From Candidatus Altimarinota bacterium (lineage in GTDB: Bacteria; Patescibacteriota; Gracilibacteria; UBA4473), in NCBI GenBank assembly GCA_020631075.1, contig JAHDHX010000008.1:1-55199 (forward strand): DNA of 55,199 nucleotides, given 5' to 3'. The translations under genes were made by a program, and so were the position numbers. The notes below the pieces were generated by a model, which worked only from the letters and a program-made list of their open reading frames with translations, made no database searches and was not told the DNA's origin. Positions 17,577 to 55,199 of the stretch are shown here, piece by piece (within the stretch, counting starts at the first letter, position 1; the number at the start of each line of letters is the position of its first letter).

Positions 17577-19031
17577 ATGTCATCTAATTCTACTCCCGCG
17601 AAAGCTCAGCGATCAATGACGCTGTGGCATCTCGCACTTTTCTCGCTCGGTGCGGCACTCTTCGTGCCTATCGCGCTTAACCTTAACGCGCAAGTCACTG
17701 GTACCTACACCAATAGTTCTATCAACTTGACTGTGACCAACTCTGGCACTTCCACGAGTACTATCAACGGTACCTCTGTTACTTCTACTTCAGGCTCCAG
17801 CACCTCAGGTGGTGGCGGAGGAGGAGGTGGAGGTGGTGGTTCATACTACTCCTCTGGTTCATTCCGCCCGACAGCCACTGGCACCACGACCAGCACCACG
17901 GCTGCTAGTCAGAGCACTATCACCACAGGGTCAATGACCACTGGCGTGGTCGCAACTACTGGCTCGACCACTGGGTACGTCGCTCAACCTCAAAATTGCG
18001 GCCAAGTCCAACTGACTATCAACCCAGACAACTTGGACTACACCGACGTGTGGCCCAAAACAGGCTTTGTCCCTGGGCAATTGCGTGACGCCTACGGCGC
18101 CAACTCCATCTTCCCAGACACCAGCGCTGACCACCCATACTACCAGTCAGCTGTTGACCTTTTCTTAATGGGAGTGGTTGATGGATACAACAATGACGGT
18201 ACCATGGCGCTCAACGACTCAGTCAACCGCGCCCAAGTCGCTAAAATGATTTCTATCGCTACCGAATCTCTCATCGAGACAGGTTGTGGCTCTGAGTTCC
18301 CAGACGTACCACAAACCGCTTGGTTCAATGACTTCGTTCGTCACCTCGCCATGACTGGCACTGTGAGTGGTTTCCCCACTGGTGAATATGGCCCAGCTCA
18401 AAGCGTCAACTACGGTCAAATGTTGAAAATTGTTGCTCGAAGCTTCAACTTCTACACCGCTGCTGACGTTCAAGGTGGTGCATGGCAAACGCCTTACTAC
18501 GAGACACTCCGCCAACACAACATCATCCCCGCCGAGCTCCGTGACTCAACTGACTTCGGCCTCGTGCTGACTCGTGGCCAAGTAATGGATTTCATCGCTC
18601 GAGCCGTCCGAACCAAGTACATGATGGGTGACGTTTACCCAGCTGCAGTTGACGTAGCTATCCCAGAAGCTGGTATTTACACCACCGCTACTCCATCACT
18701 CCCGAGTGACGCGAGTGTCTGGCTCTCTGACCTCACCCACGCTGGTTCTGCCTACTACTACGACCCAGTTGACCGCACCCACGTTGTTTGGGCGCACTCT
18801 TCTGTCTGGGGCTTCGACCCAGGTCCAGGTGCAGTCTTCCAACCCCTCTTGACCACTGGTGGTGTCGGCACCACTATCGAAGTCATGGGGCAACAGTTTG
18901 AAGTTTACGACCGCATGGAGATCAGCGAGAACCAAATCGGTGACATCCGTGACGCTGGTGCTGACTTGATCCTCTTCACCTGCCGCACAGACATCACAGA
19001 ACGTGTCGTCCTCAAAGCCCGCCGTAAGTAA
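17577..19031 (+). CDS. Secreted SLH-repeat protein with C-terminal sortase domain
   Basis: A 484-residue protein. An N-terminal signal or anchor helix (15-38) is followed by a Ser/Thr/Gly-rich linker (about 40-135) with an 11-Gly run. Three SLH-like repeats follow (about 178-232, 240-290 and 300-345), each with the F-D-x...Y...A...G...G pattern. The last 125 residues look like a sortase: a VAIPEAGIYTT first strand (360-370), catalytic His407 in VVWAHSS, a PGPGAVFQPL region, Cys469 in ILFTC (family TLxTC) and Arg476 in TERVVLKA. Sortases join LPxTG-type proteins to amines. SLH repeats bind wall polymers, so this enzyme should sit in the S-layer. Third-position C is less dominant than in neighbours, as expected of a highly expressed gene. 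The sortase call rests on motifs only. Confidence 0.85.
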   Translation: MSSNSTPAKAQRSMTLWHLALFSLGAALFVPIALNLNAQVTGTYTNSSINLTVTNSGTSTSTINGTSVTSTSGSSTSGGGGGGGGGGGSYYSSGSFRPTATGTTTSTTAASQSTITTGSMTTGVVATTGSTTGYVAQPQNCGQVQLTINPDNLDYTDVWPKTGFVPGQLRDAYGANSIFPDTSADHPYYQSAVDLFLMGVVDGYNNDGTMALNDSVNRAQVAKMISIATESLIETGCGSEFPDVPQTAWFNDFVRHLAMTGTVSGFPTGEYGPAQSVNYGQMLKIVARSFNFYTAADVQGGAWQTPYYETLRQHNIIPAELRDSTDFGLVLTRGQVMDFIARAVRTKYMMGDVYPAAVDVAIPEAGIYTTATPSLPSDASVWLSDLTHAGSAYYYDPVDRTHVVWAHSSVWGFDPGPGAVFQPLLTTGGVGTTIEVMGQQFEVYDRMEISENQIGDIRDAGADLILFTCRTDITERVVLKARRK

Positions 19032-22155: not shown

Positions 22156-23382
22156 ATGCACTTCCACCTCACCCAGCCTGCCCCCACCACCGCCCAGTCC
22201 GCCACCCTGCTGGCCCAGTTTGACGCCCGCGCTCAGGGCTTCGCCACCATCATCACTGACACCCCCCTCCATGACGACATCACTGCCTACGCCCAGTCTG
22301 TCGCGGGCCAGTTTGACCACATCGTCGTGCTGGGCATCGGCGGCAGTGCCCTCGGCACCCAGACCCTCCGCGACACCCTGGCTCCCACGCCCCAGTCAGG
22401 CCAGCCCACGCTTCACATCATCGACAATGTCGACCCCGACCTCATCCGCCAAGTGTCTGCTCAGCTCGACCTCGCTCGCACCTTATTTATTACTATCTCC
22501 AAGAGCGGCACCACCCCCGAAACCATGGCCTTGATGCGCTACTTTGAGGCGCAGCTCACCGCCCAGTCGCTGCCCCTCTCGCAGCACGTGGTGTATGTCA
22601 CCGACCCCGAGAAGGGCTTCCTCCGCCAGCGGGCCCTCACCGAAGGTATTCGTACCTTCCCCATACCGCCGAATGTTGGCGGCCGTTTCAGCGTGTTGAC
22701 CGCCGTGGGGCTCCTGCCCGCGACCTTGATCGGCATCGACCTCGCGCCCTTGCTGGCAGGGGCTCGCGCCATGGCTGAGTCTTTCCGTCACCCTGACCCC
22801 GAGCATAATTTCCCCCTCCAGCTCGCCACGTGGCTCCACGCGCACGCCGCCGCGGGGCGCACCAGCGTCGTGCTCATGCCCTACGTCCAGCGTTTACGCA
22901 CCTTTGGTGAGTGGCACGCCCAGCTGCTGGCGGAGTCGACTGGTAAAGTCAACGCCAGCGGGCAAGCCGTCGGGCTCACTCCGCTCAGTGCGCTGGGCGC
23001 GACCGACCAGCACAGTCAGCTCCAGCTCTACGCTCAGGGCCCAGACGACAAAGTCTACGTCTTCTTTTCCCGCACCGACACGGGGCCAGCCTTGCCCATC
23101 CCGCCCATGGCCCAAGCCCCCCAGTCGGACATCCTCCAAGGGGTTGATTTCGGCCACCTCCTTAATGTCGAAATGCGCGCCACCCTCCAGACCCTTTCAG
23201 AGATCGGCCGCCCCACCCTCCATTTAGAGTTTGAGCAGATCACCGCCTTTGAGCTCGGTCAGCTCTTCCTCCTCTTTGAGGGGGCCGTGGCCTTCCTCGG
23301 CGAGCTGATGGAGATTAACGCCTTCGACCAGCCAGGGGTCGAGCGCAGCAAGGTACTCACCCGCCAGTTTCTCTCCGCGTGA
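22156..23382 (+). CDS. pgi: Glucose-6-phosphate isomerase
   Basis: A 408-residue sugar isomerase of glycolysis. Active-site blocks are VVLGIGGSALGTQTLRD, ITISKSGTTPETMALMRYF, GGRFSVLTAVGLLPA and the C-terminal GVERSK with the catalytic lysine region. At 408 residues it is shorter than E. coli Pgi (549), like other compact bacterial forms. ATG 22156 is chosen because the upstream frame has no family similarity; the leader is C/T-rich. Its stop overlaps the GTG start of pbpC by four bases, so the two are probably translated together. Confidence 0.95.
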   Translation: MHFHLTQPAPTTAQSATLLAQFDARAQGFATIITDTPLHDDITAYAQSVAGQFDHIVVLGIGGSALGTQTLRDTLAPTPQSGQPTLHIIDNVDPDLIRQVSAQLDLARTLFITISKSGTTPETMALMRYFEAQLTAQSLPLSQHVVYVTDPEKGFLRQRALTEGIRTFPIPPNVGGRFSVLTAVGLLPATLIGIDLAPLLAGARAMAESFRHPDPEHNFPLQLATWLHAHAAAGRTSVVLMPYVQRLRTFGEWHAQLLAESTGKVNASGQAVGLTPLSALGATDQHSQLQLYAQGPDDKVYVFFSRTDTGPALPIPPMAQAPQSDILQGVDFGHLLNVEMRATLQTLSEIGRPTLHLEFEQITAFELGQLFLLFEGAVAFLGELMEINAFDQPGVERSKVLTRQFLSA

Positions 23383-25568
23383 CGCTCCCCACGCTGGCTC
23401 GGTTGCGGTCTTTCTGTCAGCGACGGCGTGGCTGGCGGCTCTGGCTGGGCCTGCTGTTGCTCCTTGGGGTGTGTTTTTGGGGCTGGGTGTTTTCGGGCCC
23501 CACTGCGCAGGGTGACGCCGCTTCTCCGCAGTGGTCTTTTTATGACCGCCACGGTCAGCTGCTCTGGGCTGACCGCCCCTATCATCAGCCCGCTACCCCC
23601 CTCCCGCCTGAGTTCTTGCCCCGCCTCATCACCCTTGAGGACCAAGATTTCTCCACCCACCACGGTGTTGATTGGTCAGCCTTGGGGCGGGCCTTGCTCG
23701 CTCGCACTCGGGGGGAGTCCGCCCAGGGTGGCTCCACCCTTACCATGCAGCTCGTGAAGCTCCAGCACCTGCAAAGCCACCCGCGTGACACCCGCTATAA
23801 GTTCCGCCAGATCGCCCTGGCCCTCTGGCACGACGCCACCCACAGCAAGAACGACATCTTCCACCACTACCTCACCCACGCCTACTTTGGTCAGGGCGCC
23901 CGCGGCCTCTATGAAGCCAGCCACCGCTACTTTTCCAAGCCCCCGCACCAGCTCACCGTGGCCGAGCAAGCCGTACTGTTTGGTGTCTTGCCCTACCCCG
24001 AAGCGTGGAACCCCATCACTGACCCCCAGCAAGCCCATGCCCGTCAACGCTGGGTGTTGGCCCAGTGGGCCGCGGCTGACCTCATCACTCCCGCCGAAGC
24101 CGAGCACCACGCCCAGACGCTCCCTCCTCTTCGTCCAGCGTCTCCCCACCCCGTGCTGGCCCCACACTTCGTGCAGTGGGTGCGACAGCAGGTCACCACC
24201 CAGCACCCGGACTTGCCCGACGGTGCGATCATCCACACCACGCTCGACGCCCAGTGGTACACCACCGCCACCAGCATCGCCCGTACTGAGCTCGCCGCCT
24301 TGTCTGAGGCTGACATACAAGAGGCCGCCATCATCGTCATCGATAATGACACCAGCGCCGTCCGCGTGATGGTCGGCGGCCTCCATTTTTTTAACCCTGA
24401 CTTTGCGGGTCACGTAAATCTCACCCTCCAGCCCCGCCAGACAGGCTCCACCCTCAAACCCTTTCTCTACGGCCTCGCGCTGGACTCTGGCCTGCACCCG
24501 GCCTTCCCGCTGGACGACTCACACACGGGGTTTACCACCCCCGAGGGCACCTACCGCCCCGCCAACTTCGACCATGAGGTCACCTACGGTCAGGTGCGCC
24601 TCCGCGAGGCCTTGGCTAACTCTTATAATGTCTCCGCCGTCAGCCTCCTGCAGCGTGTCGGAGTCGAGTCTTTCCTCCGCACCCTGCGCCAGTTTGGCTT
24701 CACCCCACCCGCAGGCCGACAGACGGGCCTCACGGCCGTGCTCGGCACCGTCGAAGCCTCCCTCCTCACTCTCACCCACGCCTACAGCACTTTGGCCCAG
24801 CGCCAGCACCAGCCGCTCCAGTCATTCACCCACATCACCGACGCCCAGGGTACGACCCTTTGGCAGGCGCCATCATCCACCTCCACCAACCTTGCTCCCA
24901 GCTCGCCTTTCAGTGCCCCCACCCACGAATGGCTCGACTTCGCCCTCAGTGACCAGCTCATCCGTTGGCGTGTCTTTGGTCAGGGCAATGTCCTCGAGCT
25001 CCCATTCACCGCCACCGCCAAGACAGGCACCAGCCAGCAATACCGTGACAACTACACTCTCGGCTCCACCCCCGCCCACACCGTGGGCGTGTGGGTCGGC
25101 CACGCGGACGGCACCCCGCTCTACACCACTTCGGGCATCGCGGGGGCAGGGCCCATCTGGCACCACCTGCTGCGCCACATCCAGCGTGACCTCCCCGACC
25201 GAGCTTTCCCCACCACTGGCACGCGGGTGCCCGTCACACTGTGTCGTCGGGCCTACGACACGCCTGACACCTGCACCGAAACCATGACCGAGCACCTCAC
25301 CGCGGCCGAGATCACTCAGCTCCCGCAAGCCGACCGCCCCCCCTTGCGCGTCACTTACCCCAGCGCGGGCGACCACTTTCACCCCCAGACAGAGCTCCTC
25401 CTGCAGTCGTCCTATGGCCGTGGGGCCGCGGTGCAGTTTTGGCTCGACGGCCAGCCGACCTCGCCCTATGTGGGCGCCCTCACCCCGGGGCCACACACCG
25501 TCGTGGCGGAGTTCGCTCAGCAACGCTCCGCCCCCCTGACCTTTTTTGTCGACGCCCCACTTCCCTGA
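23379..25568 (+). CDS. pbpC: Penicillin-binding protein 1C
   Basis: A 729-residue bifunctional peptidoglycan synthase. A basic N terminus and one membrane helix (about 21-40) are followed by a GT51 transglycosylase domain with catalytic Glu88 in TLEDQDFSTHHGVDW and the GGSTLTMQLVK block. The transpeptidase domain shows S357-T-L-K360, SYN (415-417) and KTGTSQ. The C terminus (about 640-729) is the extra beta domain found in PbpC proteins. It starts with GTG at 23379, sharing GTGA with the pgi stop. In many bacteria pbpC neighbours an alpha-2-macroglobulin gene, as here. Confidence 0.95.
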   Translation: MTLPTLARLRSFCQRRRGWRLWLGLLLLLGVCFWGWVFSGPTAQGDAASPQWSFYDRHGQLLWADRPYHQPATPLPPEFLPRLITLEDQDFSTHHGVDWSALGRALLARTRGESAQGGSTLTMQLVKLQHLQSHPRDTRYKFRQIALALWHDATHSKNDIFHHYLTHAYFGQGARGLYEASHRYFSKPPHQLTVAEQAVLFGVLPYPEAWNPITDPQQAHARQRWVLAQWAAADLITPAEAEHHAQTLPPLRPASPHPVLAPHFVQWVRQQVTTQHPDLPDGAIIHTTLDAQWYTTATSIARTELAALSEADIQEAAIIVIDNDTSAVRVMVGGLHFFNPDFAGHVNLTLQPRQTGSTLKPFLYGLALDSGLHPAFPLDDSHTGFTTPEGTYRPANFDHEVTYGQVRLREALANSYNVSAVSLLQRVGVESFLRTLRQFGFTPPAGRQTGLTAVLGTVEASLLTLTHAYSTLAQRQHQPLQSFTHITDAQGTTLWQAPSSTSTNLAPSSPFSAPTHEWLDFALSDQLIRWRVFGQGNVLELPFTATAKTGTSQQYRDNYTLGSTPAHTVGVWVGHADGTPLYTTSGIAGAGPIWHHLLRHIQRDLPDRAFPTTGTRVPVTLCRRAYDTPDTCTETMTEHLTAAEITQLPQADRPPLRVTYPSAGDHFHPQTELLLQSSYGRGAAVQFWLDGQPTSPYVGALTPGPHTVVAEFAQQRSAPLTFFVDAPLP

Positions 25569-25614
25569 TCCACCATTTTTTTGTAAATTAACCCCGAAAT
25601 TTCCCCCCATTCTC

Positions 25615-28600
25615 ATGCTTCGCTCTCTCGCCGTTTTGTTGCTCGGTCTTTTTTTATCTGGGTGCGACCTCCTCACTCCGTCAGCGGAGTCAGAGCCAAC
25701 CACAGCGTCCACGACCACGGCCGCTACCACGACTGAAATTTCCGACAACACTCCTGATAGCGAAGCAACCACTACAACAACTACCACTGACGTCCCCGAC
25801 GGCACAGGCGGCAAAGCCCCCACCGACCCGAATGTCGCTGCCCAGTCAATCGCCGACATCGAAGCCACTCTCGCCACGATGGACCGCTCCACCGCCGAGC
25901 TCGTCATGACTGTGCCCGAACCAGGGGCCGCCCAGCTCACAGGGCCCCAGTCACTGACCTTTTTGTGGGACACCCCCATATTCCCCCTCGCCGCCCCCGA
26001 AGCCCTGCAGCAGTGGCTCACCCAGCACGCCACTCTCACCCCTGCGGTCGACGGCGCGTGGCAGGTCATCGGCACACAGGGCATCTTGTTTGAGCCATAC
26101 ACCGACCTCCCTCGCTCCACCTCTTTCACGCTCACCCTCGACAGCACCGTCACCGGCACCCAGCCCCTCACGCATGAGTTCACCACCCAGCAACTCCAGT
26201 TTACCAGCGTCAGGGGCCAGCACCTTTTCGGCCGCAAACCCATCACCCTTCACTTCAACCAGCCCGTCAACATTGACGATTTTTCGCTCATCACCGTCAC
26301 CCCCGCGCTTGACTTCACAGCTGAGTACGGCGTGACCGAGCGCACCCTCCCCGACGGCACCGCCACCGAAACCGAAAACCAAAGCCAGCTCGTACTCACC
26401 CCACAGGCCGACTGGCCGCTCGACACCCAGTTTAAGTTCACCATGCCTTCGGAGTTCCGCGCGTTGGAAGGCCCCCTGCCCGCCCGCCCCAGCACCAAGT
26501 CTATCCACACCGTCAAACCGTTCAGTTTGCAGTGTTCTAGCCAAAATCGCGACGAATTCTCTGTTTTCCAGTCCACAGGCATCTCCTTCACCACCCCCGT
26601 CGACCGCCAGACACTCTTCGACCACCTCGTCGTCACCCCTGAGCCCCCCGCCGAGCAATGGGCAGCCTTCCTCCAGACCCTCGACCAAACCCACACCAGC
26701 GACACACTCACCAGTCTGTCTTTCCCTCCCTACGACCTCTACGGCACGCCTTTCGCCACGGGGGTGGCGCATACCTTCGGGGTTGACCCCGCCCTGACAG
26801 ACACCTTCGGCCAACCGTTCAAGGGCCTCACCCACTGCCGTGACTACTTTTTCACCTACCCTGACCACTTTTCGTCTATCTACTGGCCGCAGCAGGGGCA
26901 GGTCGTCACTCGATCCAGCGTCCCTCCGTTTGGCTTTCGCTACTCAGGCGACATTGTTTCCGCTCGGCTGATCGCCCAGCACTACGCCCCCAGCGCCGCC
27001 ACCGCCACCGTCCACACCGCGGACCTGGCCGTCACCCCCGACACCACGCGTGAGTTCGTCCTCTCGCTTGACCTCCCCACCCTTCTCCCCGACCTCTTCA
27101 TCGGTGACCAGTGGGCCGACGCAGGCACCTATCACTTCATGGTCGAAGCCCAATACCCCCCCCAGTCGGACAATCGCCCTCACCCGCGCTTCATCCGCCA
27201 CCAGACCCACTTCCACGTCACCGACTTCGCCCTCACCCAGCAGCATCAGGCCGACGCCGAGCACCTCATCACCCTCAGCCCCATCGGCGCCCAGCCCCTC
27301 CCCGAGGGCGACATTCGTTATTTCAGCTGGAAAAACGACCGCAACAACACCCAATACACCGACGAAGGCGCATTGATCATCAACCCCCGCACGCGACAGT
27401 CCGACCAGCAAGGCACCGCCGACACGTTTCCGACTTTCACGCTGGAGTCAAGCAACCCCCTGCAAGCCCTCTGGGCCCAGGTCGGCAACCAGTTTGGGGT
27501 CGTTTCAGCCGCCTTCAACCACTCTCTCCGCACCCAAAACTCCGACCTCAAAGTCAACCCCAACCACTACCGTCAGACCATGGCAGGCGCGTCAGTCACC
27601 GACCGCCCACTCTATCGCCCGGGCGACACCGTCCACCTCAAATCCATCCTCCGCGAATACCAATTCTTCGACTCCCTCCCCCCCTACCGCCCTGTGACCG
27701 ACACAGGCCATCGGGCCAGTGTTTCCGTGCGTGACCCATTTCACGAGGTCATCTTTGAGGCCAGCGACCTCCCCGTCGCCGAAGGCAGCTTTGACCTCAG
27801 TTTCGACCTCCCCCCACAGGCTGATTTGGGATCCTACCGCTTACAGATTAGTGCCACCAACGGCGAAACCACCAACGGACACTCCATCACCTTCCATGTC
27901 ACCGAGTACCGCAAACCGAAATTCCTCATCGAAGCCGATTTCAGCACCGACCACGCCATCGAGGGCGACGACCTCACCGCTACCATCCGTGCAGAATACC
28001 TGTTTGGTGGCCCGCTGAAGGGTAAAGACGGCCACTACACGCTGTCCGTCTTCGGTCGTGAAAACTGCCGCTACTGGTGGGGGTGCCGCCAGCGTGACAT
28101 CCCATTGCAACAGGCCGCCTTTCAGCTCGACGACCAGGGCCAGTTCACCTTCACCACCCCGCTGGAGCTCCCCGATGAAGAAGACCTTCAGTTTGAGCTT
28201 CTCCACCTCGACGTCATCGTGAAGGAAGCCGCCGATGAGCAATCAAGCCAGCGAGTGTCCATTCCCCTCGCCGTGGCTGACCGCACGCTGACCCTCCGCA
28301 CCGACCGCCACTTTTTTGAGCCCCCCCAAACCATCACAGGGCAAGGAACGGTCACCGACTTGACCGAATCCCCCCTCGCGCAAGAACCCGTCACCGTCAC
28401 CCTCTCTCGTGAGCAATGGGTACGCAACGACCGCAAAAACGGCCGCGGCGACTACCAAGGCGAATGGCGCCGTGACTATGTCACCACCGACGAGACCACC
28501 GTCACCACCGACAAAAACGGCGACTACGTCTACGACTTCCCCCTCCCTGAGGACGGCGGCACCTACCGCCTGCAGGCCACCGTCACCGACGATGCTGACC

Positions 28601-31578
28601 GCCCCCTGTCCGCGACCACGTTCACGTGGGTGCAGCAGGAGGTACCAGAACGGCAACGCCTCCACACCGCCACGCCCAACTCTTTACTTGAGCTCTTCAC
28701 CTCCGCGCCCGAATTCACCGTGGGGGAAACAGCCCAAGTATTCTTCCCCGCTACCAGCTGGCAGCCAGAGCGCGCCTGGGCCGTGCTCGAGCGCGGCGAC
28801 GTCCGCTCCACCAACCTCCTCCCCACCCCTGAGGGCACCGTGATAGAGCTCCCGATCGAAGCGTGGATGGTCCCCAATGTCTACGTCAGTGTCCTGCTCG
28901 AAGGCACCGACGCCGACGGCACCCCACAGATCCGCTGGGGCAGTGTGTCGGTCAACGTCACCGACCCCGCGCGTGAGCTAGAAATAGATCTCGACGTCCC
29001 CACTGGCTTTCAGGCCCCGGGCGACACCGTCGACGTCCCCATCACCACCACTATCGAGGGCCAACCCGTCCCCGCCGAAGTCACCGTCGCCGTGGTGGAC
29101 CTGTCTCTGCTCGCCTTGAAGTCCCGAGCCGACTTCGACCTCCGCCAGCACTTCTTTCAGCGGCTCCCGCTGGGGGTGGTCACTACCCACACCTTGGCTA
29201 ATTTTCTTTCCCAGCAACAGATCGACGAAAAAGCCGCCCAGATCAATGATCTGAGTCAGAAATTTAGTCCCCAGAGTCCAGTCTCAGGCTACAACGAAAA
29301 GTCATTTGATGGGGTCTCCCTCCTTACGGCGGAAACGGCTATGCGCACTGGCGGCGGTGGCGGTGGGGGTGGCGGCACCAGCACCAGCAAAGTGTCAGAG
29401 TTCGCCCCGCGGGGTGACTTCCGCGACACGGCTCTGTTTGTCGCTCGGGTCCAGACCGACGACCAGGGCCAGGCAACCGTGCCCTTGCAGCTCCCCGACA
29501 ACCTCACCCAGTGGGACGTCTGGGCCTTCGCCCACACCCCCGACAGCGCCTTCGGAGAGGCCAAAGCCCAAATCGACGTCACCAAACCTCTCCTGATCGA
29601 GCCCATCCTCCCCAATATCTTCCGCGAGGGCGACACCGCCCAGATCGGCGTGCTCGTCAGCCGCCAGCTCCCCAGTCCTCGCCCCGCCGACACCCCCGCG
29701 ACCGAACCCGTCACCGTCACGCTCCAGCTCCCCGACGGTCTCACTCCCTTGGGGCCGCTCAGCCAGACGGTTGACGTCACCGACACCGCGCGTGTCTTCT
29801 TCACCGTTGAGTCTGGCCACGGCCTGTCCCTCGAGCCCGAAACCCCCATCGAGCTCCCCATCACCTTCACCGTCAAGGGCGAAGACTCAGGCCACACCGA
29901 CGCCCTGCAAGTCACCCGTCGGTGGCACCCGCCACACGTGGCCACCACGGCAGCCTTCCTCGACCACATTGACACCACCCCACTCCAGTTCCCCATCCAG
30001 TCTGACGTCCGCGCCCTACGGTCTGACCTCGAGCTCACCACCTACCGCTCCGTGCTCCACTCACTCACGGGGCTGACCGACCGCACGCACCAGACAGACT
30101 ACGGCTGCACCGAGCAAATGTTCTCCGCTCTCTCCAGCGACCTCATAGAATACGACCTCTTTCAGGCCGCAGGCGCCGAAACCGCCGAGCCCGACTGGCC
30201 CGCCTACACCAAATTCCTCGAAATTCTCCCCCAGCGCATTCATCGCTCGGGCGGTGTCCAGTTTTGGCCAGGGTCACGGTCAGCCCCCAGCCCATGGGTC
30301 AGCGCCCGCTTGCACGAGGCCGCCCCCCTCTGGGCCCAGCACGGCCACCCGATCCCACAGACCATCGTCGACGGCGCTATGCGATACGCGTGGGACCAAG
30401 TCAAAAACTGTACCCCCGACAACACGCAGTGCTGGGACGGCCTCACCCAATACGTCCTCAGCCAAGCCATCCTCGCTGACCCACTGACGACAGACGCCCA
30501 AGGCCGCTTCGACGCGATGAGCAAGATGACCCGCAGCACCGAGTCAAAAGTGTGGTTCTTGCTCGCCTTGCAGCGAGCCCAAGCCAAAGGCTACACCCCA
30601 TCACCCGCCCTGCAGTCCACCGCGCAGGAGCTCACCGACACCCTCCAGCGCAATCTCAAAGTCCGTGAACGCGCCGTCACGTGGGAAGAAACCGCTCCCT
30701 ACTACTACTCCCAGCCAACCCGCCTTTCCAGCCTCATGCTTATGCTCATGCTCGAGCGTGACACCTTCACTGACTTCTTGCCGCAAGTCGCCACGGGGCT
30801 CATCGGCGCCGACCGCACCAGCTTGTCTGGCTCCACGGCCTTCCGCACCCTGTGGGCACTGCGTGACTACGTTAAAGCGTTTGAGACCCCCACCCAAACC
30901 GTCGACTACCAGCTGAAAGTCGGTGACCAAACCCTCAGTGGCCCGCTGCCCGACGCCCACACCGTCGTGACGCACCAGCAGTCACTCCCTCCTCAGACGG
31001 TCACCCCTTTCACCGCCAGCCCCAGCCCCGACGGCGGCAAATACTACGTCGAAGGTACCCTGCGTGAGGTCTTCCACGCCGACGACATCAACCCCGTTCA
31101 AAAAGGCTTCTGGATCGAGCGCGAGTTTTTCGCCCTCGACGACGAAAACTTCCAGAACCCTCTGACCGAGTTCACCGTCGGCCAGTCCTACAAAGTCCGC
31201 CTGCGGGTCATCACCCACCAGTCACACCGTCAGGTAATGATCGAAGACGCCGTGCCCTCTGGGTTCGAGCTCGTAAATTTCAACCTCGACAACGCTGACC
31301 AGACACTGGCCCAGCACGCCACCCACACGGGTGAGGGGCGTGCCCACTGCCGTGGCTGGTGTGCGCCGCTGTTTGCCCACCACGAGCTCTGGTTTGACCG
31401 CGCCCGCTTCTTCACCGACTGGCTCCGCCCTGGCACGCACGAGGTCGTCTACATCGCGCAGGCCCGCATCACGGGTGAGTTTGACGTCCCCCCCGCCCAA
31501 GTCCTTGAGATGTACAACCCCGAAGTCTTCGCCCACGGCGCAGGCGACCGCATCACCATCACCCTCCCGACTGAGTAA
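25615..31578 (+). CDS. Bacterial alpha-2-macroglobulin lipoprotein
   Basis: A 1987-residue lipoprotein. The signal peptide ends in the lipobox LFLSGC (acylated Cys near residue 19), then a Thr-rich linker. The macroglobulin (MG) domains follow, including the marker TDRPLYRPGDTVHLKSILRE. A nine-Gly run in MRTGGGGGGGGGTSTSK may mark the flexible bait region. LPDNLTQWDVWAFA matches the conserved post-bait motif. The thioester is intact: C1498-T-E-Q1501 in DYGCTEQMF. An alpha-helical thioester domain and receptor-like domain finish it. Such proteins trap attacking proteases and pair with PBP1C. ATG 25615 gives the signal peptide; the frame extends upstream into pbpC without support. Confidence 0.95.
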   Translation: MLRSLAVLLLGLFLSGCDLLTPSAESEPTTASTTTAATTTEISDNTPDSEATTTTTTTDVPDGTGGKAPTDPNVAAQSIADIEATLATMDRSTAELVMTVPEPGAAQLTGPQSLTFLWDTPIFPLAAPEALQQWLTQHATLTPAVDGAWQVIGTQGILFEPYTDLPRSTSFTLTLDSTVTGTQPLTHEFTTQQLQFTSVRGQHLFGRKPITLHFNQPVNIDDFSLITVTPALDFTAEYGVTERTLPDGTATETENQSQLVLTPQADWPLDTQFKFTMPSEFRALEGPLPARPSTKSIHTVKPFSLQCSSQNRDEFSVFQSTGISFTTPVDRQTLFDHLVVTPEPPAEQWAAFLQTLDQTHTSDTLTSLSFPPYDLYGTPFATGVAHTFGVDPALTDTFGQPFKGLTHCRDYFFTYPDHFSSIYWPQQGQVVTRSSVPPFGFRYSGDIVSARLIAQHYAPSAATATVHTADLAVTPDTTREFVLSLDLPTLLPDLFIGDQWADAGTYHFMVEAQYPPQSDNRPHPRFIRHQTHFHVTDFALTQQHQADAEHLITLSPIGAQPLPEGDIRYFSWKNDRNNTQYTDEGALIINPRTRQSDQQGTADTFPTFTLESSNPLQALWAQVGNQFGVVSAAFNHSLRTQNSDLKVNPNHYRQTMAGASVTDRPLYRPGDTVHLKSILREYQFFDSLPPYRPVTDTGHRASVSVRDPFHEVIFEASDLPVAEGSFDLSFDLPPQADLGSYRLQISATNGETTNGHSITFHVTEYRKPKFLIEADFSTDHAIEGDDLTATIRAEYLFGGPLKGKDGHYTLSVFGRENCRYWWGCRQRDIPLQQAAFQLDDQGQFTFTTPLELPDEEDLQFELLHLDVIVKEAADEQSSQRVSIPLAVADRTLTLRTDRHFFEPPQTITGQGTVTDLTESPLAQEPVTVTLSREQWVRNDRKNGRGDYQGEWRRDYVTTDETTVTTDKNGDYVYDFPLPEDGGTYRLQATVTDDADRPLSATTFTWVQQEVPERQRLHTATPNSLLELFTSAPEFTVGETAQVFFPATSWQPERAWAVLERGDVRSTNLLPTPEGTVIELPIEAWMVPNVYVSVLLEGTDADGTPQIRWGSVSVNVTDPARELEIDLDVPTGFQAPGDTVDVPITTTIEGQPVPAEVTVAVVDLSLLALKSRADFDLRQHFFQRLPLGVVTTHTLANFLSQQQIDEKAAQINDLSQKFSPQSPVSGYNEKSFDGVSLLTAETAMRTGGGGGGGGGTSTSKVSEFAPRGDFRDTALFVARVQTDDQGQATVPLQLPDNLTQWDVWAFAHTPDSAFGEAKAQIDVTKPLLIEPILPNIFREGDTAQIGVLVSRQLPSPRPADTPATEPVTVTLQLPDGLTPLGPLSQTVDVTDTARVFFTVESGHGLSLEPETPIELPITFTVKGEDSGHTDALQVTRRWHPPHVATTAAFLDHIDTTPLQFPIQSDVRALRSDLELTTYRSVLHSLTGLTDRTHQTDYGCTEQMFSALSSDLIEYDLFQAAGAETAEPDWPAYTKFLEILPQRIHRSGGVQFWPGSRSAPSPWVSARLHEAAPLWAQHGHPIPQTIVDGAMRYAWDQVKNCTPDNTQCWDGLTQYVLSQAILADPLTTDAQGRFDAMSKMTRSTESKVWFLLALQRAQAKGYTPSPALQSTAQELTDTLQRNLKVRERAVTWEETAPYYYSQPTRLSSLMLMLMLERDTFTDFLPQVATGLIGADRTSLSGSTAFRTLWALRDYVKAFETPTQTVDYQLKVGDQTLSGPLPDAHTVVTHQQSLPPQTVTPFTASPSPDGGKYYVEGTLREVFHADDINPVQKGFWIEREFFALDDENFQNPLTEFTVGQSYKVRLRVITHQSHRQVMIEDAVPSGFELVNFNLDNADQTLAQHATHTGEGRAHCRGWCAPLFAHHELWFDRARFFTDWLRPGTHEVVYIAQARITGEFDVPPAQVLEMYNPEVFAHGAGDRITITLPTE

Positions 31579-42832: not shown

Positions 42833-43957
42833 ATGAAAAAATTATCACTGTTCCTCGGGTGCCTGCTGGTGGCGGGCGCGCTGCACTTCCCCCAGACCAT
42901 AGCCCTCTCTTGCATGGCTCCCTTGCCGTCGGCCCCACCCGTCAGCGAAAGGGTAAACGACTACGGCGTTATCTTCATCGGGCGTGTCGACAGTCTGACA
43001 GACTCTCACGTCAACGACTTAAACGCAACCGACATACAGCCCTTTGGCGTCGGGGATAGCTGGAGTGAGTACGCCGTCACCGTCACCCAAGGCTACAAAG
43101 GCATCACCACTGGCGACACCACCACCGTTCGCACTGAAGGCACCGCTTGGAGCATCTGGGCAGCGGGCAGCACGCAGTACCCCCGCTACACCATCGGCGA
43201 CCAGTACCTCTGGTACGCCAACTGGTCCACCGACGGCACCATGGTCGTCACCCCCATGAACCCCGACTGCAGCCAGCTCAACCTCATAACCCATCAGTCA
43301 CAATACGCTTCAGACAAAGCCGCCCTCGACGCAATCTATGGCACCACAACCCCCATGGGTGACACCACTCCCAAAGCCATAATGGTACGAGCCCAGCCAG
43401 GGCACAGTGACAGCTTCACCGTGTTGTCGCTCATACGCAACACCACCCAGCAACCACTGGCAGTCAGTGCACGCCTCATCAGCCAGACCGACGCCACGGT
43501 GGACGCCTGCGGTGGGGTGCTCGCTCCCGACAAGCCATTCTTTCGGTGCAGCCTGTCAGGGGTTCGTCGTGGCGTTGGCCAGCTTGTCGAAGTCCGCACA
43601 GACCCCGACAGCACCCTCGCTGAAACCAATGAAACCAACAACCGAATCGTCCGAAGGGTTGACGATGTACTATGGAAACCACGTCCGCACACCCCAGACG
43701 TGCTTCCCACTGGCATCAAGTCCCTCCCCCGCCCCAACCCCACCATAGTACGACCAGTGCTCACCACCCCACCACGTCTGGTGCAACCCCGCACCGTCAC
43801 CCCGCAGAAGAAAATACAACCAGTGCGCAAAACCCTCCGACCAATGCTCAAAACACCCAGCTTCAAAAATTCCGCCCCCACTCGGACACTTTCCACCACC
43901 AGTCGCTCCCCACTCCGAAAGCTGAAGTACCCCATGGTGCGACAGAAGAGTGGGTAA
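42833..43957 (+). CDS. Secreted NTR-like (TIMP-fold) protein with CARDB-type domain
   Basis: A 374-residue exported protein. A signal peptide (MKKLSLFLGCLLVAGALH...) is cleaved near residue 25. The mature end begins SCMAPLPS, and VIFIGRVDSL, VTVTQGYKGITTGDTTTVRT and YTIGDQYLWYANW match the netrin/TIMP-like beta-barrel that begins with a Cys near the mature N terminus. A second domain (about 180-285) ends DPDSTLAETNETNNRIVR, the CARDB adhesion-domain signature. The last 95 residues are Pro/Arg/Thr-rich and strongly basic, perhaps binding wall polymers. The function is unknown. Confidence 0.78.
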   Translation: MKKLSLFLGCLLVAGALHFPQTIALSCMAPLPSAPPVSERVNDYGVIFIGRVDSLTDSHVNDLNATDIQPFGVGDSWSEYAVTVTQGYKGITTGDTTTVRTEGTAWSIWAAGSTQYPRYTIGDQYLWYANWSTDGTMVVTPMNPDCSQLNLITHQSQYASDKAALDAIYGTTTPMGDTTPKAIMVRAQPGHSDSFTVLSLIRNTTQQPLAVSARLISQTDATVDACGGVLAPDKPFFRCSLSGVRRGVGQLVEVRTDPDSTLAETNETNNRIVRRVDDVLWKPRPHTPDVLPTGIKSLPRPNPTIVRPVLTTPPRLVQPRTVTPQKKIQPVRKTLRPMLKTPSFKNSAPTRTLSTTSRSPLRKLKYPMVRQKSG

Positions 43958-46176: not shown

Positions 46177-46412
46177 GAGGGTGCACGAAGGACAATCAAA
46201 AAAAGGAGTAGGCACGATAAACAAGCCGATAGTAGGGCCAGTGACCGAGAGAGCAACCCTGAAAAAGACATGATCCGCAAGGCAAGACAAAGGCAAATGT
46301 GGAAAACTATTTGACAGATATGGACAAAATTGCAACTATTTAGAATGATTAAAAACTGCAAAGTTTTTATGCGTTCCACATCATTTTGTTAACTCCTCAC
46401 CTCCCTTGCAAA

Positions 46413-47579
46413 ATGCCTTTACCCATCGGACCAGAAGCCGCCATCGCCCAAGAAGTGCAAAATCAAAAGCTTACCGCAGAGGAAGTAGCCAAGATAGAAG
46501 CAGGCCAACTACGTGACATTGAGGCAGGAAAAACCGTCACCGTCGAAAAAGTTATGGACACTATCGCTGAGGAGAACGGTGGGGTGATGATTACAGCGAG
46601 TGAGGGCTCAGATGACGGTGAAGACAACGAAGTTCCTCAAAATGTTATAAATTTCATGGATGGGATTAATTTTCCGGTTGTTTATGAAACTGTTCGAGTT
46701 GATCGTGTTGGTGATACGAATCAATTCGTTATATCGTGCACAGAGACTGGAGTTCCATTAAGTAACGGCGAAATAGAGCTTATTAATGAGGAGATAGACC
46801 CAGAAAGTATAGGAGTTGCAACCATAATGAGTCAAAGTACTTATAATCTCGGAATTACTAATGGCATAGACGCAGATGGTATCCGACAATTTGCAGAAAG
46901 AGGTTTAGAGGATTTAGATCAAGAGTTGAACTTTGCGATTGGGTGTGACATGACTGACCTCGCGACCAAAATTAATATTAAAATAGACAAGATATTCCTA
47001 CCAGATGAGTTAGTAGAGAATGACGAAGAAATGTTTAATAAGGTGAGAATAATGATGGCAATAGGTGCACTCACTGGTGTAGACGGAGTCAACTACACAG
47101 CAGGCGGAGTCTCTGATCATGTAGTGATTAATCAAAAATTTGCAGAAGTTGCTGAAGAGTTGAATAAAGATGATTTCTTTTTGGTCCGAACGCGTATAGT
47201 AAGTGAATCCAATCTACCAGAAAATAGTGTCGATATGGTCGAGTCTCTTGTGAATTTCCTCAGTCAATTTGGACTCACTTTGGACAATAGTTGTGAAGAA
47301 ATAAATAGCGTTATAAGTGATTATATTACTACGGCAGTATCCGTGCCAAACGGAATATCAGACCTAAAACTCACCGCATACCCAAACCCAATATCTGCAG
47401 GTGAAGTATTAAATATTGAAGGGATTGGTGTGGGCGAGCAAGTAAAAATGTATAATTTAGCTGGAAAAGAGGTACCTGTGATTAAGACAGGGACTGGGAT
47501 TGTGATTGATCAGCTTCCTTCCGGGATATATCTCTTACAAACTGAAAGAAAGAAAATTCTTAAGGTAGTAGTACAGTAA
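46413..47579 (+). CDS. Acidic protein with type IX secretion-like C-terminal domain
   Basis: A 388-residue protein of unknown function. The C-terminal 75 residues (AYPNPISAGEVLNIEG, VKMYNLAGKEV, TGIVIDQLPSGIYLLQTE, KILKVVVQ) follow the Por/T9SS type A sorting-domain pattern of Bacteroidetes. No signal peptide is seen, although T9SS clients need one. The N-terminal 50 residues end GQLRDIEAGKTVTVEKVMDTI, which resembles ParD-type antitoxin tails. The middle is acidic. The gene is markedly A+T-rich with codon use unlike its neighbours, so it may have been acquired. Upstream is a TAGAAT (46341-46346) possible -10. Confidence 0.75.
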   Translation: MPLPIGPEAAIAQEVQNQKLTAEEVAKIEAGQLRDIEAGKTVTVEKVMDTIAEENGGVMITASEGSDDGEDNEVPQNVINFMDGINFPVVYETVRVDRVGDTNQFVISCTETGVPLSNGEIELINEEIDPESIGVATIMSQSTYNLGITNGIDADGIRQFAERGLEDLDQELNFAIGCDMTDLATKINIKIDKIFLPDELVENDEEMFNKVRIMMAIGALTGVDGVNYTAGGVSDHVVINQKFAEVAEELNKDDFFLVRTRIVSESNLPENSVDMVESLVNFLSQFGLTLDNSCEEINSVISDYITTAVSVPNGISDLKLTAYPNPISAGEVLNIEGIGVGEQVKMYNLAGKEVPVIKTGTGIVIDQLPSGIYLLQTERKKILKVVVQ

Positions 47580-52705: not shown

Positions 52706-52795
52706 GCACAAGTGGCGAAATTGGTAGACGCGCAAGCTTGAGGGGCTTGTGGGAAATTTACTCCCGTGGAGGTTCAAGTCCTCTCTTGTGCACCA
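52706..52795 (+). tRNA. tRNA-Leu (GAG)
   Basis: A class II tRNA with a long variable arm. The acceptor is GCACAAG/CTTGTGC, the anticodon stem CAAGC/GCTTG closes TTGAGGG (anticodon GAG), and the T arm holds GTTCAAGTC. The 3' ACCA is encoded. Confidence 0.97.
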
Positions 52796-52856: not shown

Positions 52857-52931
<75 letters not shown>

Positions 52932-52998: not shown

Positions 52999-55199
52999 TT
53001 ACTCGCCCCCACCAGTAAGCGGCAATATATCCAACGCTTCGAGGTTATTGCTTTTTCGCTCAGGCAGCACTGGGTATGGCCGTATTTTGTTTTGTGGTGC
53101 TTGTGGATTTTTTGGTGCCCCATCGTCGTCTTTGGCGACAGGTGCAGCATTTTTGAAGGTTTCCACTTCTTCTGGTTTAGCTTCGGGTACGGTTGGTGGT
53201 TCATATGACTCTGGTTGGCTGGGGACAGTCAGCGGGGTGTATGCCCCACTGGTTTGATTGCCCGTGGTGGTGCCAGTGGTACTTCCACTCCCGCCAGTGG
53301 TGCTGCCATACCCATTGGTTGACGACCCCCGGCCAGTGCTACTGCTATACCCAGACGTACGGCTGCCAGTGGTACGGCTGCCGCCACTGGTGCCAGACGA
53401 CCCACCACTTCCCCCCGAACTACTCGTGCCACTGGTCGTGGTGCTCGTGTCTGTGCTACTGGTCGGATTGGGCTTTCGGTTATATCCAAAGTCAGCCGTA
53501 AAGTTTGTTTGTGCCGCTTCAGTGAGTGTTACGTTATATCCAGCATGATCTTGGCTGTTGTTATTCACTCCAGGATTACTCCCGAGTGATTCTGTGAAAC
53601 TAAATAATATCGGCTGCCCTCCACTAATGCGAACAACATAAGTGATTGGATTTCCAGTGTCATCAAGGATCGGAAGATCAGAAAATTGATACTCTCCGTT
53701 CACATCTGTAATGGCATACCCCACTGCCGTGCCACTAGCTTCATACAGTTCAACCGCCACACCTGGAAATGGTATGTCACCAGCACCAAAATTCCCATCT
53801 TCATCAGCATCAACAAACACTTGGTTCCCAATGATGCCTAAATTTTCACCAAAATTATTGTTTTGAGAATGATCTAGCGCATTGAGAACCACATCGGTGA
53901 TGCGGTTTGCATCAACAAAACTACCAGACTGCACACTGCCCTCACCGTGTTGCGGAGCAGGCACCACATCTGTACTGGTGTCTGAACCCGTCGAAGCGTA
54001 CGCTGGTGGTTGAATTTCTAGCACACTGTACACACCAGGCAGCAACGCATCAAAACGGTAGAATCCGTTAGTATCGGTAAGTTCGACTGGGCTGGTGATG
54101 AACGCTGGGTCAGTGTTGGTGACACTAAATTGAGTAGTAAACCAAGCATATTCTGCTGGGTAGAGCGTGGCATCTGGGCCATAATAATTTCCGAACTGGT
54201 CCATCCCAACCAGGATCATTTCAACATTAGGAATGCCTATTTCACCGGTGTCAATCAGCACATCTTGGTTTTTGTCATACCACACGTTTCCGCTCAGCTG
54301 TGCTAAGTTGTCTGGCGTATTATAAGTCGGAGTAGAGGTAGGATCACAAGTGCTAGGATCGCCGTCAGTGTCGGGCACTGCACAGGTGAGGGTGTCGCCG
54401 AACTTGGCTTGGTTTTCGATCGTGAACCCATTGGTGGTGTCGATGGGGTCAGCCACTTGGGCGTCAAAGATGATCACCGTTTGCCCAGGCGTGCTGGTGG
54501 TGTCGTTATAAGGTGGCACAGTCACACTAAACCCAGTGGTGACATCCAACGATGTATTTGCCACGCCGTCTATCAAAACACTGTTTGGCACAAAGCTCAG
54601 ATTTGGGTCACTCAGTGTGTCGAGGAAAGTATCGGACGCACTAGAGCCCCCGTCATTATAGATGGTGATAGTGAAGGTGAGAATTTCACCCAGATAAGCA
54701 AAACCGTCTGGATCAGCCTCAGTGACCGCTTTAGTGGCACGGAGTTGTGCTTCAGTGGGGAAGACCGTGGGGGTACATTCCTCAGGCAAATTCGCCGGGT
54801 CACAGGTGTCTTCGCCATCTACAGTGGCTTGGTTGCTCACACTCACGACACCAGCAGGGAGAGGGTCAGCGACGGTGACAGTGAAGGAGATGGTGGTTTG
54901 GCCAGCAAGAGCAGTAACACTGTCATAGGGGGGCACATCGACCGTGAACCCAGTCGTGATGTCTAAAGTACTGTCTGCCGTACCATCGACGGTGACAGAG
55001 CCAGAGTCGAAGGAGAGGTTTGGGTCAGCCAAGAGGTCTTGCACCAAGGTGTTAGAGGCAACAGAGCCACCATCGTTGTAAATCTCAATGGTGTAGGTAA
55101 GGGTTTCACCGGCATTGACTTCACCATCTTCGACAGATTCAGCCGTGACCGCTTTAGTGGCACGGAGTTGTGCTTCAGTGGGGAAGACCGTGGGGGTAC
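52999..55199 (-). CDS. Large repetitive surface protein with terminal LPLTG (5' end outside window)
   Basis: The last 733 or so residues of a secreted adhesin-like protein; the reading frame stays open to the window edge. From the edge inward come two DUF11/isopeptide-type repeats of about 141 residues (each with YNDGG, DPNLSF and VPPY). Two SdrD B-like domains follow, starting LSGNVWYDKNQD and IGNQVFVDADEDGNF, each with a Ca-binding DxDxDG-like loop and a YxFxxL turn. Then come an 80-residue Ser/Gly/Thr linker and a Pro/Glu/Lys-rich stretch. The protein ends DILPLTGGGE. LPLTG fits the sortase LPxTG motif, but the usual membrane helix and basic tail are absent, and no frame after the stop supplies them. 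Confidence 0.88.
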   Translation of the reverse strand, partial: TPTVFPTEAQLRATKAVTAESVEDGEVNAGETLTYTIEIYNDGGSVASNTLVQDLLADPNLSFDSGSVTVDGTADSTLDITTGFTVDVPPYDSVTALAGQTTISFTVTVADPLPAGVVSVSNQATVDGEDTCDPANLPEECTPTVFPTEAQLRATKAVTEADPDGFAYLGEILTFTITIYNDGGSSASDTFLDTLSDPNLSFVPNSVLIDGVANTSLDVTTGFSVTVPPYNDTTSTPGQTVIIFDAQVADPIDTTNGFTIENQAKFGDTLTCAVPDTDGDPSTCDPTSTPTYNTPDNLAQLSGNVWYDKNQDVLIDTGEIGIPNVEMILVGMDQFGNYYGPDATLYPAEYAWFTTQFSVTNTDPAFITSPVELTDTNGFYRFDALLPGVYSVLEIQPPAYASTGSDTSTDVVPAPQHGEGSVQSGSFVDANRITDVVLNALDHSQNNNFGENLGIIGNQVFVDADEDGNFGAGDIPFPGVAVELYEASGTAVGYAITDVNGEYQFSDLPILDDTGNPITYVVRISGGQPILFSFTESLGSNPGVNNNSQDHAGYNVTLTEAAQTNFTADFGYNRKPNPTSSTDTSTTTSGTSSSGGSGGSSGTSGGSRTTGSRTSGYSSSTGRGSSTNGYGSTTGGSGSTTGTTTGNQTSGAYTPLTVPSQPESYEPPTVPEAKPEEVETFKNAAPVAKDDDGAPKNPQAPQNKIRPYPVLPERKSNNLEALDILPLTGGGE
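54722..54776 (-). repeat. Intragenic repeat, inner copy
   Basis: These 55 bases are identical to 55145-55199. They encode the same segment (TVFPTEAQLRATKAVT) at the boundary of adjacent 141-residue units. Confidence 0.9.
55145..55199 (-). repeat. Intragenic repeat, outer copy
   Basis: Identical to 54722-54776, 423 bases away. The repeat runs into the window edge, so more units probably follow. Confidence 0.9.

Follow-up and report, generated by a model that had tools for sequence, protein, structure and literature searches.

We consider it about evenly balanced whether this genome of the Gracilibacteria class encodes a two-part outer-layer system, made up of surface-protein/sortase polyproteins that would cut themselves and of anchorless proteins ending in LPxTGGG that would be their substrates in trans. 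The layout of the first part, in which a sortase site, SLH domains and a sortase follow one another in a single chain, is well supported by the sequences compared here. The genome comprises 1.46 Mb in 50 contigs, and the window, i.e. the whole stretch of 55,199 nucleotides that was analysed, corresponds to C10:1-55199; it holds one protein of each kind.

Surface proteins that carry an SLH-sortase cassette

The SLH-sortase that a first-pass annotation had noticed in the window is indeed present, and its His/Cys/Arg triad is intact. The gene has the following features:

17577-19031, plus strand: secreted protein of 484 amino acids, consisting of a Ser/Thr/Gly stalk, WPKTG, SLH and sortase (ORF, Pfam, alignments)
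18051-18065, plus strand: WPKTG, predicted to be cut in cis, where the stalk meets the SLH-sortase cassette
18297-18422, plus strand: best-scoring SLH domain of the cassette (Pfam SLH)
18636-19028, plus strand: divergent sortase domain of the cassette (alignments A1, A3 and A5; profile match; PDB)
18795-18797, 18981-18983 and 19002-19004, plus strand: catalytic His, Cys and Arg, respectively (alignments A1, A3 and A5)

The one hydrophobic segment of this protein is its signal-peptide-like N-terminus, which is followed by the low-complexity stalk. Its SLH-sortase clade has six members in the genome. Five are surface proteins, 484 to 4811 amino acids long, that are built in the order ectodomain, hydrophobic-P-x-T-G, SLH and sortase. 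The sixth (on contig C40) is a stand-alone SLH-sortase behind a signal peptide and starts at the predicted cut position of the others. One SLH domain scores above the Pfam cut-off in the window protein and two do so in each of the C8-798 and C40 paralogues, out of 35 SLH domain matches in the genome. The 4811-residue secreted protein (L153, C7:107213-121645) has SdrD_B domains, LPRTG, a degenerate SLH region and an intact sortase triad.

By homology, the cassette domain is a true member of the sortase superfamily (PF04203, peptidase family C60). Profile-profile comparison with the canonical sortases of the class gave 98.8% and an E of 1.4e-16 (hhalign), the best match among PDB sortases was 4d70 (E 1e-8), and 11 of the 13 members of the cassette clade had a Pfam sortase match (best 2e-13), while the sortase domain of the window protein had none when taken alone. 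The catalytic triad of the module is H253, C315 and R322 (alignments A1 and A3); His and Arg are invariant in all 13 domains and Cys is present in 12. None of the NCBIfam models for the named classes A-F scored above cut-off for any cassette tested. In the tree, all cassette sortases group as a single clade (support 100/99) apart from the canonical membrane-type sortases and also separate from another set, the stand-alone SLH-sortases that are widespread in two families of the class. An AlphaFold model of the module from two sequences was poor (pLDDT 48) and was set aside.

A hydrophobic-P-x-T-G motif stands directly before the SLH region in all cassette surface proteins but one, namely IPFTG, WPKTG, IPQTG, IPSTG and LPRTG in this genome and WPRTG (G325), WPRTG (G324), IPKTG (G298), YPLTG (G007) and LPRTG (G004) elsewhere. 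In these five proteins here and five elsewhere it lies 292-394 residues from the C-terminal end, about 330 in most, and it is the sole such motif in nine of the ten within the portion of each protein at hand, in chains of up to 4811 amino acids. Shuffling yields such a motif in at most 0.85% of cases per 20-residue window. The exception, a homologue in genome G033 (L165, G033:C17), reads FPQLG at this position, having lost the motif Thr, and has Ser in place of the catalytic Cys (LILFTSAEDPSERW); in this single genome, substrate site and enzyme have apparently been lost jointly. The stand-alone C40 enzyme starts with VTVPDWLRSKYDA after its signal peptide, and the 1709-residue C7 protein continues with GATPDWLRERYQA after its motif, such that signal cleavage in the former gives the N-terminus that a cut between T and G would yield in the latter.

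The cassette fusion is sparse, being found in 7 of 353 genomes of the class, and a 380-genome sample of the phylum held no relative outside the class at E <= 1e-18. Related-locus searches returned no conserved stretch with alignment A3 and, with alignment A4, one true relative on a contig of an uncultured Ca. Gracilibacteria. Stand-alone SLH-sortases of about 400 amino acids (L229-L249, families f5 and f9) are widespread in the class; they have a signal-peptide-like N-terminus, SLH repeats and a sortase, with no further transmembrane helix seen, and no adjoining substrates were seen in the neighbourhoods examined.

Two other loci of the window are of note. At 46386-47579 (plus strand), a protein of 397 amino acids has a C-terminal domain like the sorting domain of the Por secretion system (T9SS), at a score just below the Pfam cut-off; such a domain is, to our knowledge, unexpected in this lineage. 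At 23379-31578 (plus strand), a penicillin-binding protein (transglycosylase/transpeptidase) is directly followed by an alpha-2-macroglobulin of 2010 amino acids, a pairing of the usual pbpC-A2M type.

Anchorless proteins with a terminal LPxTG

The window ends within the gene of a second surface protein, encoded on the minus strand, whose features and surroundings are as follows:

52999-55197, minus strand: C-terminal 732 amino acids of a DUF11/SdrD_B surface protein (ORF, Pfam, signal peptide on contig)
53482-53832, minus strand: SdrD_B domain (Pfam), found elsewhere in the genome only in a protein on contig C17 and in the 4811-residue cassette protein
53011-53025, minus strand: LPLTG sortase motif (translation, DNA pattern match)
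53002-53010, minus strand: tail GGE, then stop, without a membrane anchor (ORF, hydropathy, three-frame check)
52857-52931, plus strand: tRNA-Met behind the stop (ARAGORN)
52706-52795, plus strand: tRNA-Leu behind the stop (ARAGORN)

Pfam assigns SdrD_B (3.1e-19) and DUF11 (6.1e-9) to this protein, which also contains a Ser/Thr/Gly linker. The gene is cut by the window edge and continues on the contig beyond an assembly gap (a stretch of N within its repeats), where a Sec signal peptide, MILRKNLFSVIAGVFISLANVASA, was recognised by eye; given this signal peptide, the protein is most likely secreted. It ends in ALDILPLTGGGE, the terminal residues of the translated ORF being RKSNNLEALDILPLTGGGE, with the stop codon at 52999-53001 (minus strand). 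Like canonical LPXTG proteins it thus has a signal peptide and an LPxTG near the C-terminus, three residues before the stop, whereas the basic tail is replaced by GGE and the hydrophobic helix is missing both from the protein and from the frames behind the stop. The claim of the first-pass annotation that no anchor follows LPLTGGGE therefore holds, as no stretch of 19 residues among the last 80 is hydrophobic (highest Kyte-Doolittle mean -0.06). Nor is an anchor hidden by a frameshift: the DNA behind the stop encodes none in any of its three frames; the tRNA-Met and tRNA-Leu genes, the former ending 67 bases from the stop, leave little room for one.

Genome-wide, LPxTG DNA patterns are not enriched (72 matches against 108 in the reversed control) and the motif by itself hence means little. 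Among the 72, plausible secreted proteins with a C-terminal LPxTG are three, namely a canonical LPVTG protein, the window protein and a diverged SdrD_B paralogue of 2933 amino acids on contig C17, which ends in ILPETGGGWSVHDNACVLIED, likewise without an anchor. When the last 150 residues of each anchorless protein were shuffled, LPxTG fell within a stretch of 20 residues in 0.15% (window protein) and 0.07% (C17 paralogue) of cases; it is the position of LPxTG, rather than its presence, that is above chance in these proteins. LPxTG occurs in all three proteins with a Pfam SdrD_B match, terminally in the two anchorless ones and followed by the cassette in the 4811-residue protein.

A scan of the C-termini of the genome by DNA patterns for [FLIMV]PxTG, which covered about three quarters of sites, returned one further short tail, VPDTGYVPLSAE, which we judged to be due to chance, the protein being an RND-type efflux adaptor lipoprotein (L270, G000:C8:185600-188010) that adjoins an RND transporter gene. 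The test proposed in the first-pass annotation, a search for more short LPxTG tails and for their co-occurrence with SLH-sortase fusions across relatives, had a mixed outcome: this genome has two such surface proteins, and none turned up when 27 further genomes from the class were scanned for the LPxTGG form, with about three quarters of sites covered. Among these 27 were genomes with the fusion or with stand-alone SLH-sortases. The only C-terminal LPxTGG in that scan, in G004, belongs to a protein with a canonical membrane anchor and was ruled out as an anchorless substrate.

Five secreted proteins encoded in this genome share a short linker motif, [ST]FKN[AS]AP or SFKGAAP (window 53141-53157, minus strand, and 43862-43878, plus strand; C17:188-204; C8:127559-127575; C8:190005-190021), which sometimes lies 20-45 residues upstream of xPxTG.

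The first-pass annotation had further paired the SLH-sortase with the anchorless protein. The enzyme is there; it is, however, not simply a partner, as SLH-sortases are, in this genome, mostly the C-terminal cassettes of surface proteins with their own xPxTG site, so that on this comparison of sequences sortase and site are primarily related as parts of a single chain. In our best reading, the anchorless protein belongs to the cassette protein set without having the cassette itself.

Proposed mechanism and its alternatives

The architecture, the position and conservation of the motif, the intact triad, the homology with sortases and the paralogy were established directly, and from them we infer cleavage, its position, the preference for cis over trans and the existence of trans substrates. 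A single chain would be made, consisting of a secreted ectodomain or stalk, hydrophobic-P-x-T-G, one or more SLH domains and a sortase without a membrane anchor of its own. The sortase would attack the bond between T and G, either in its own chain (probably in cis) or in a neighbour's, the ectodomain would be held as a thioester and then transferred to a wall or S-layer amine, and the SLH-sortase piece would stay behind as a free enzyme, held by its SLH domains. Both anchorless proteins, the one that ends in LPLTGGGE and the C17 paralogue, could then be trans substrates of freed cassettes or of the stand-alone C40 SLH-sortase, and SLH-sortases, not the usual membrane sortase, would cut them; with the enzyme outside the membrane, as proposed, such substrates would need no membrane helix. 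In vitro, sortase ligates LPETGG tags that have no membrane helix (PMC2063460), and a chain engineered as sortase-LPETG-target undergoes self-cleavage (PMC2901362). The evidence for the trans part comes from two paralogous proteins of this one genome, which may represent one evolutionary event. The complete picture of a natural cis-sortase system, with xPxTG polyproteins that cut themselves between T and G and freed SLH-sortases that serve anchorless LPxTGGG proteins with no membrane-held intermediate, is one we put forward tentatively, at somewhat less than an even chance.

The most serious alternative, although we regard it as unlikely, is that the LPxTGGG tails are functionless relics of cassette proteins that lost their SLH-sortase, the proteins being simply released. 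The third SdrD_B paralogue retains its cassette, the residues after TG differ between the window protein and the C17 paralogue and are unrelated downstream of the motif, as truncation would give, and no comparable tails were seen in the 27-genome LPxTGG scan, all of which fits such a loss. A relic would, however, be expected to decay, whereas LPxTGGG is intact in both proteins although the surrounding linkers have diverged.

It seems improbable that the anchorless proteins are instead cut by the ordinary membrane sortase while crossing the membrane. The genome does have one canonical membrane-type sortase (C5:83935), which might accept any LPxTG, and near it lies a substrate whose sorting signal is complete, LPVTGEP...TM...RR, including the helix and an Arg tail. 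That enzyme, however, has in this fully anchored protein a dedicated neighbour, a substrate without an anchor is not retained at the membrane during cell-wall sorting, and the cassette motifs would be left unexplained. Slightly less probable still is that the junction motif serves to free the ectodomain into the surroundings by hydrolysis, with no joining to the wall. Sortases slowly hydrolyse their thioester, and the uncut protein is already anchored by SLH, both of which would agree with such a release; against it stand the stand-alone SLH-sortases, which have no ectodomain to free and suggest a transfer role on other proteins. Finally, it is very improbable that the LPLTGGGE motif arose by chance, as a pentapeptide of a tail rich in Pro, Gly and Thr, in view of the shuffling frequencies and of the motif's presence in both cassette-less SdrD_B proteins and, as LPRTG, in the third, even if LPxTG lacks enrichment in the genome and the RND-adaptor lipoprotein has an evident chance tail.

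Relation to known systems and biological meaning

Sortases, SLH proteins and LPxTG proteins are each already known. The proposed cis-sortase system shares with LPXTG sorting by class A-F sortases of Gram-positive bacteria a secreted protein, an LPxTG near the C-terminus and a His-Cys-Arg cysteine transpeptidase; it differs in that the anchorless substrate has neither hydrophobic anchor nor basic tail, that the sortase would be held by SLH domains in place of a membrane helix, and that enzyme and site are often one chain. SLH-domain surface proteins are similarly secreted and non-covalently held by SLH repeats, but here the SLH region stands between a sortase site on its N-terminal side and a catalytic sortase domain on its C-terminal side. 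Autoprocessing cysteine protease domains of large secreted proteins, one of which has been employed as a self-cleaving tag (PMC2780291), also release parts of their chain through a cysteine protease of their own, albeit with an unrelated fold, by hydrolysis rather than transpeptidation and with a different trigger. Self-cleaving sortase fusions made by engineering (BISOP, PMC2901362; sortase-tag expressed protein ligation) likewise have sortase and site in one chain, such that the enzyme cuts its own fusion, and need no membrane; those are artificial, whereas the present layout is natural and has an SLH domain between site and enzyme. Papers on CPR bacteria mention sortases in general terms only (PMC6744442, PMC4736985, PMC6851277), and in the literature searched, mostly outside subscription journals, we found no description of SLH-sortase fusions or of natural proteins that combine site and sortase.

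Canonical sortase anchoring requires both a membrane-held enzyme and a membrane-held substrate. If the mechanism proposed here is true, a sortase that is held at the S-layer and shares a single chain with its own site would make neither membrane-held partner necessary, and the system would represent a natural counterpart of the engineered self-cleaving sortase fusions. It would also suggest a route by which small, host-associated bacteria of the candidate phyla display adhesins of up to 4811 residues.
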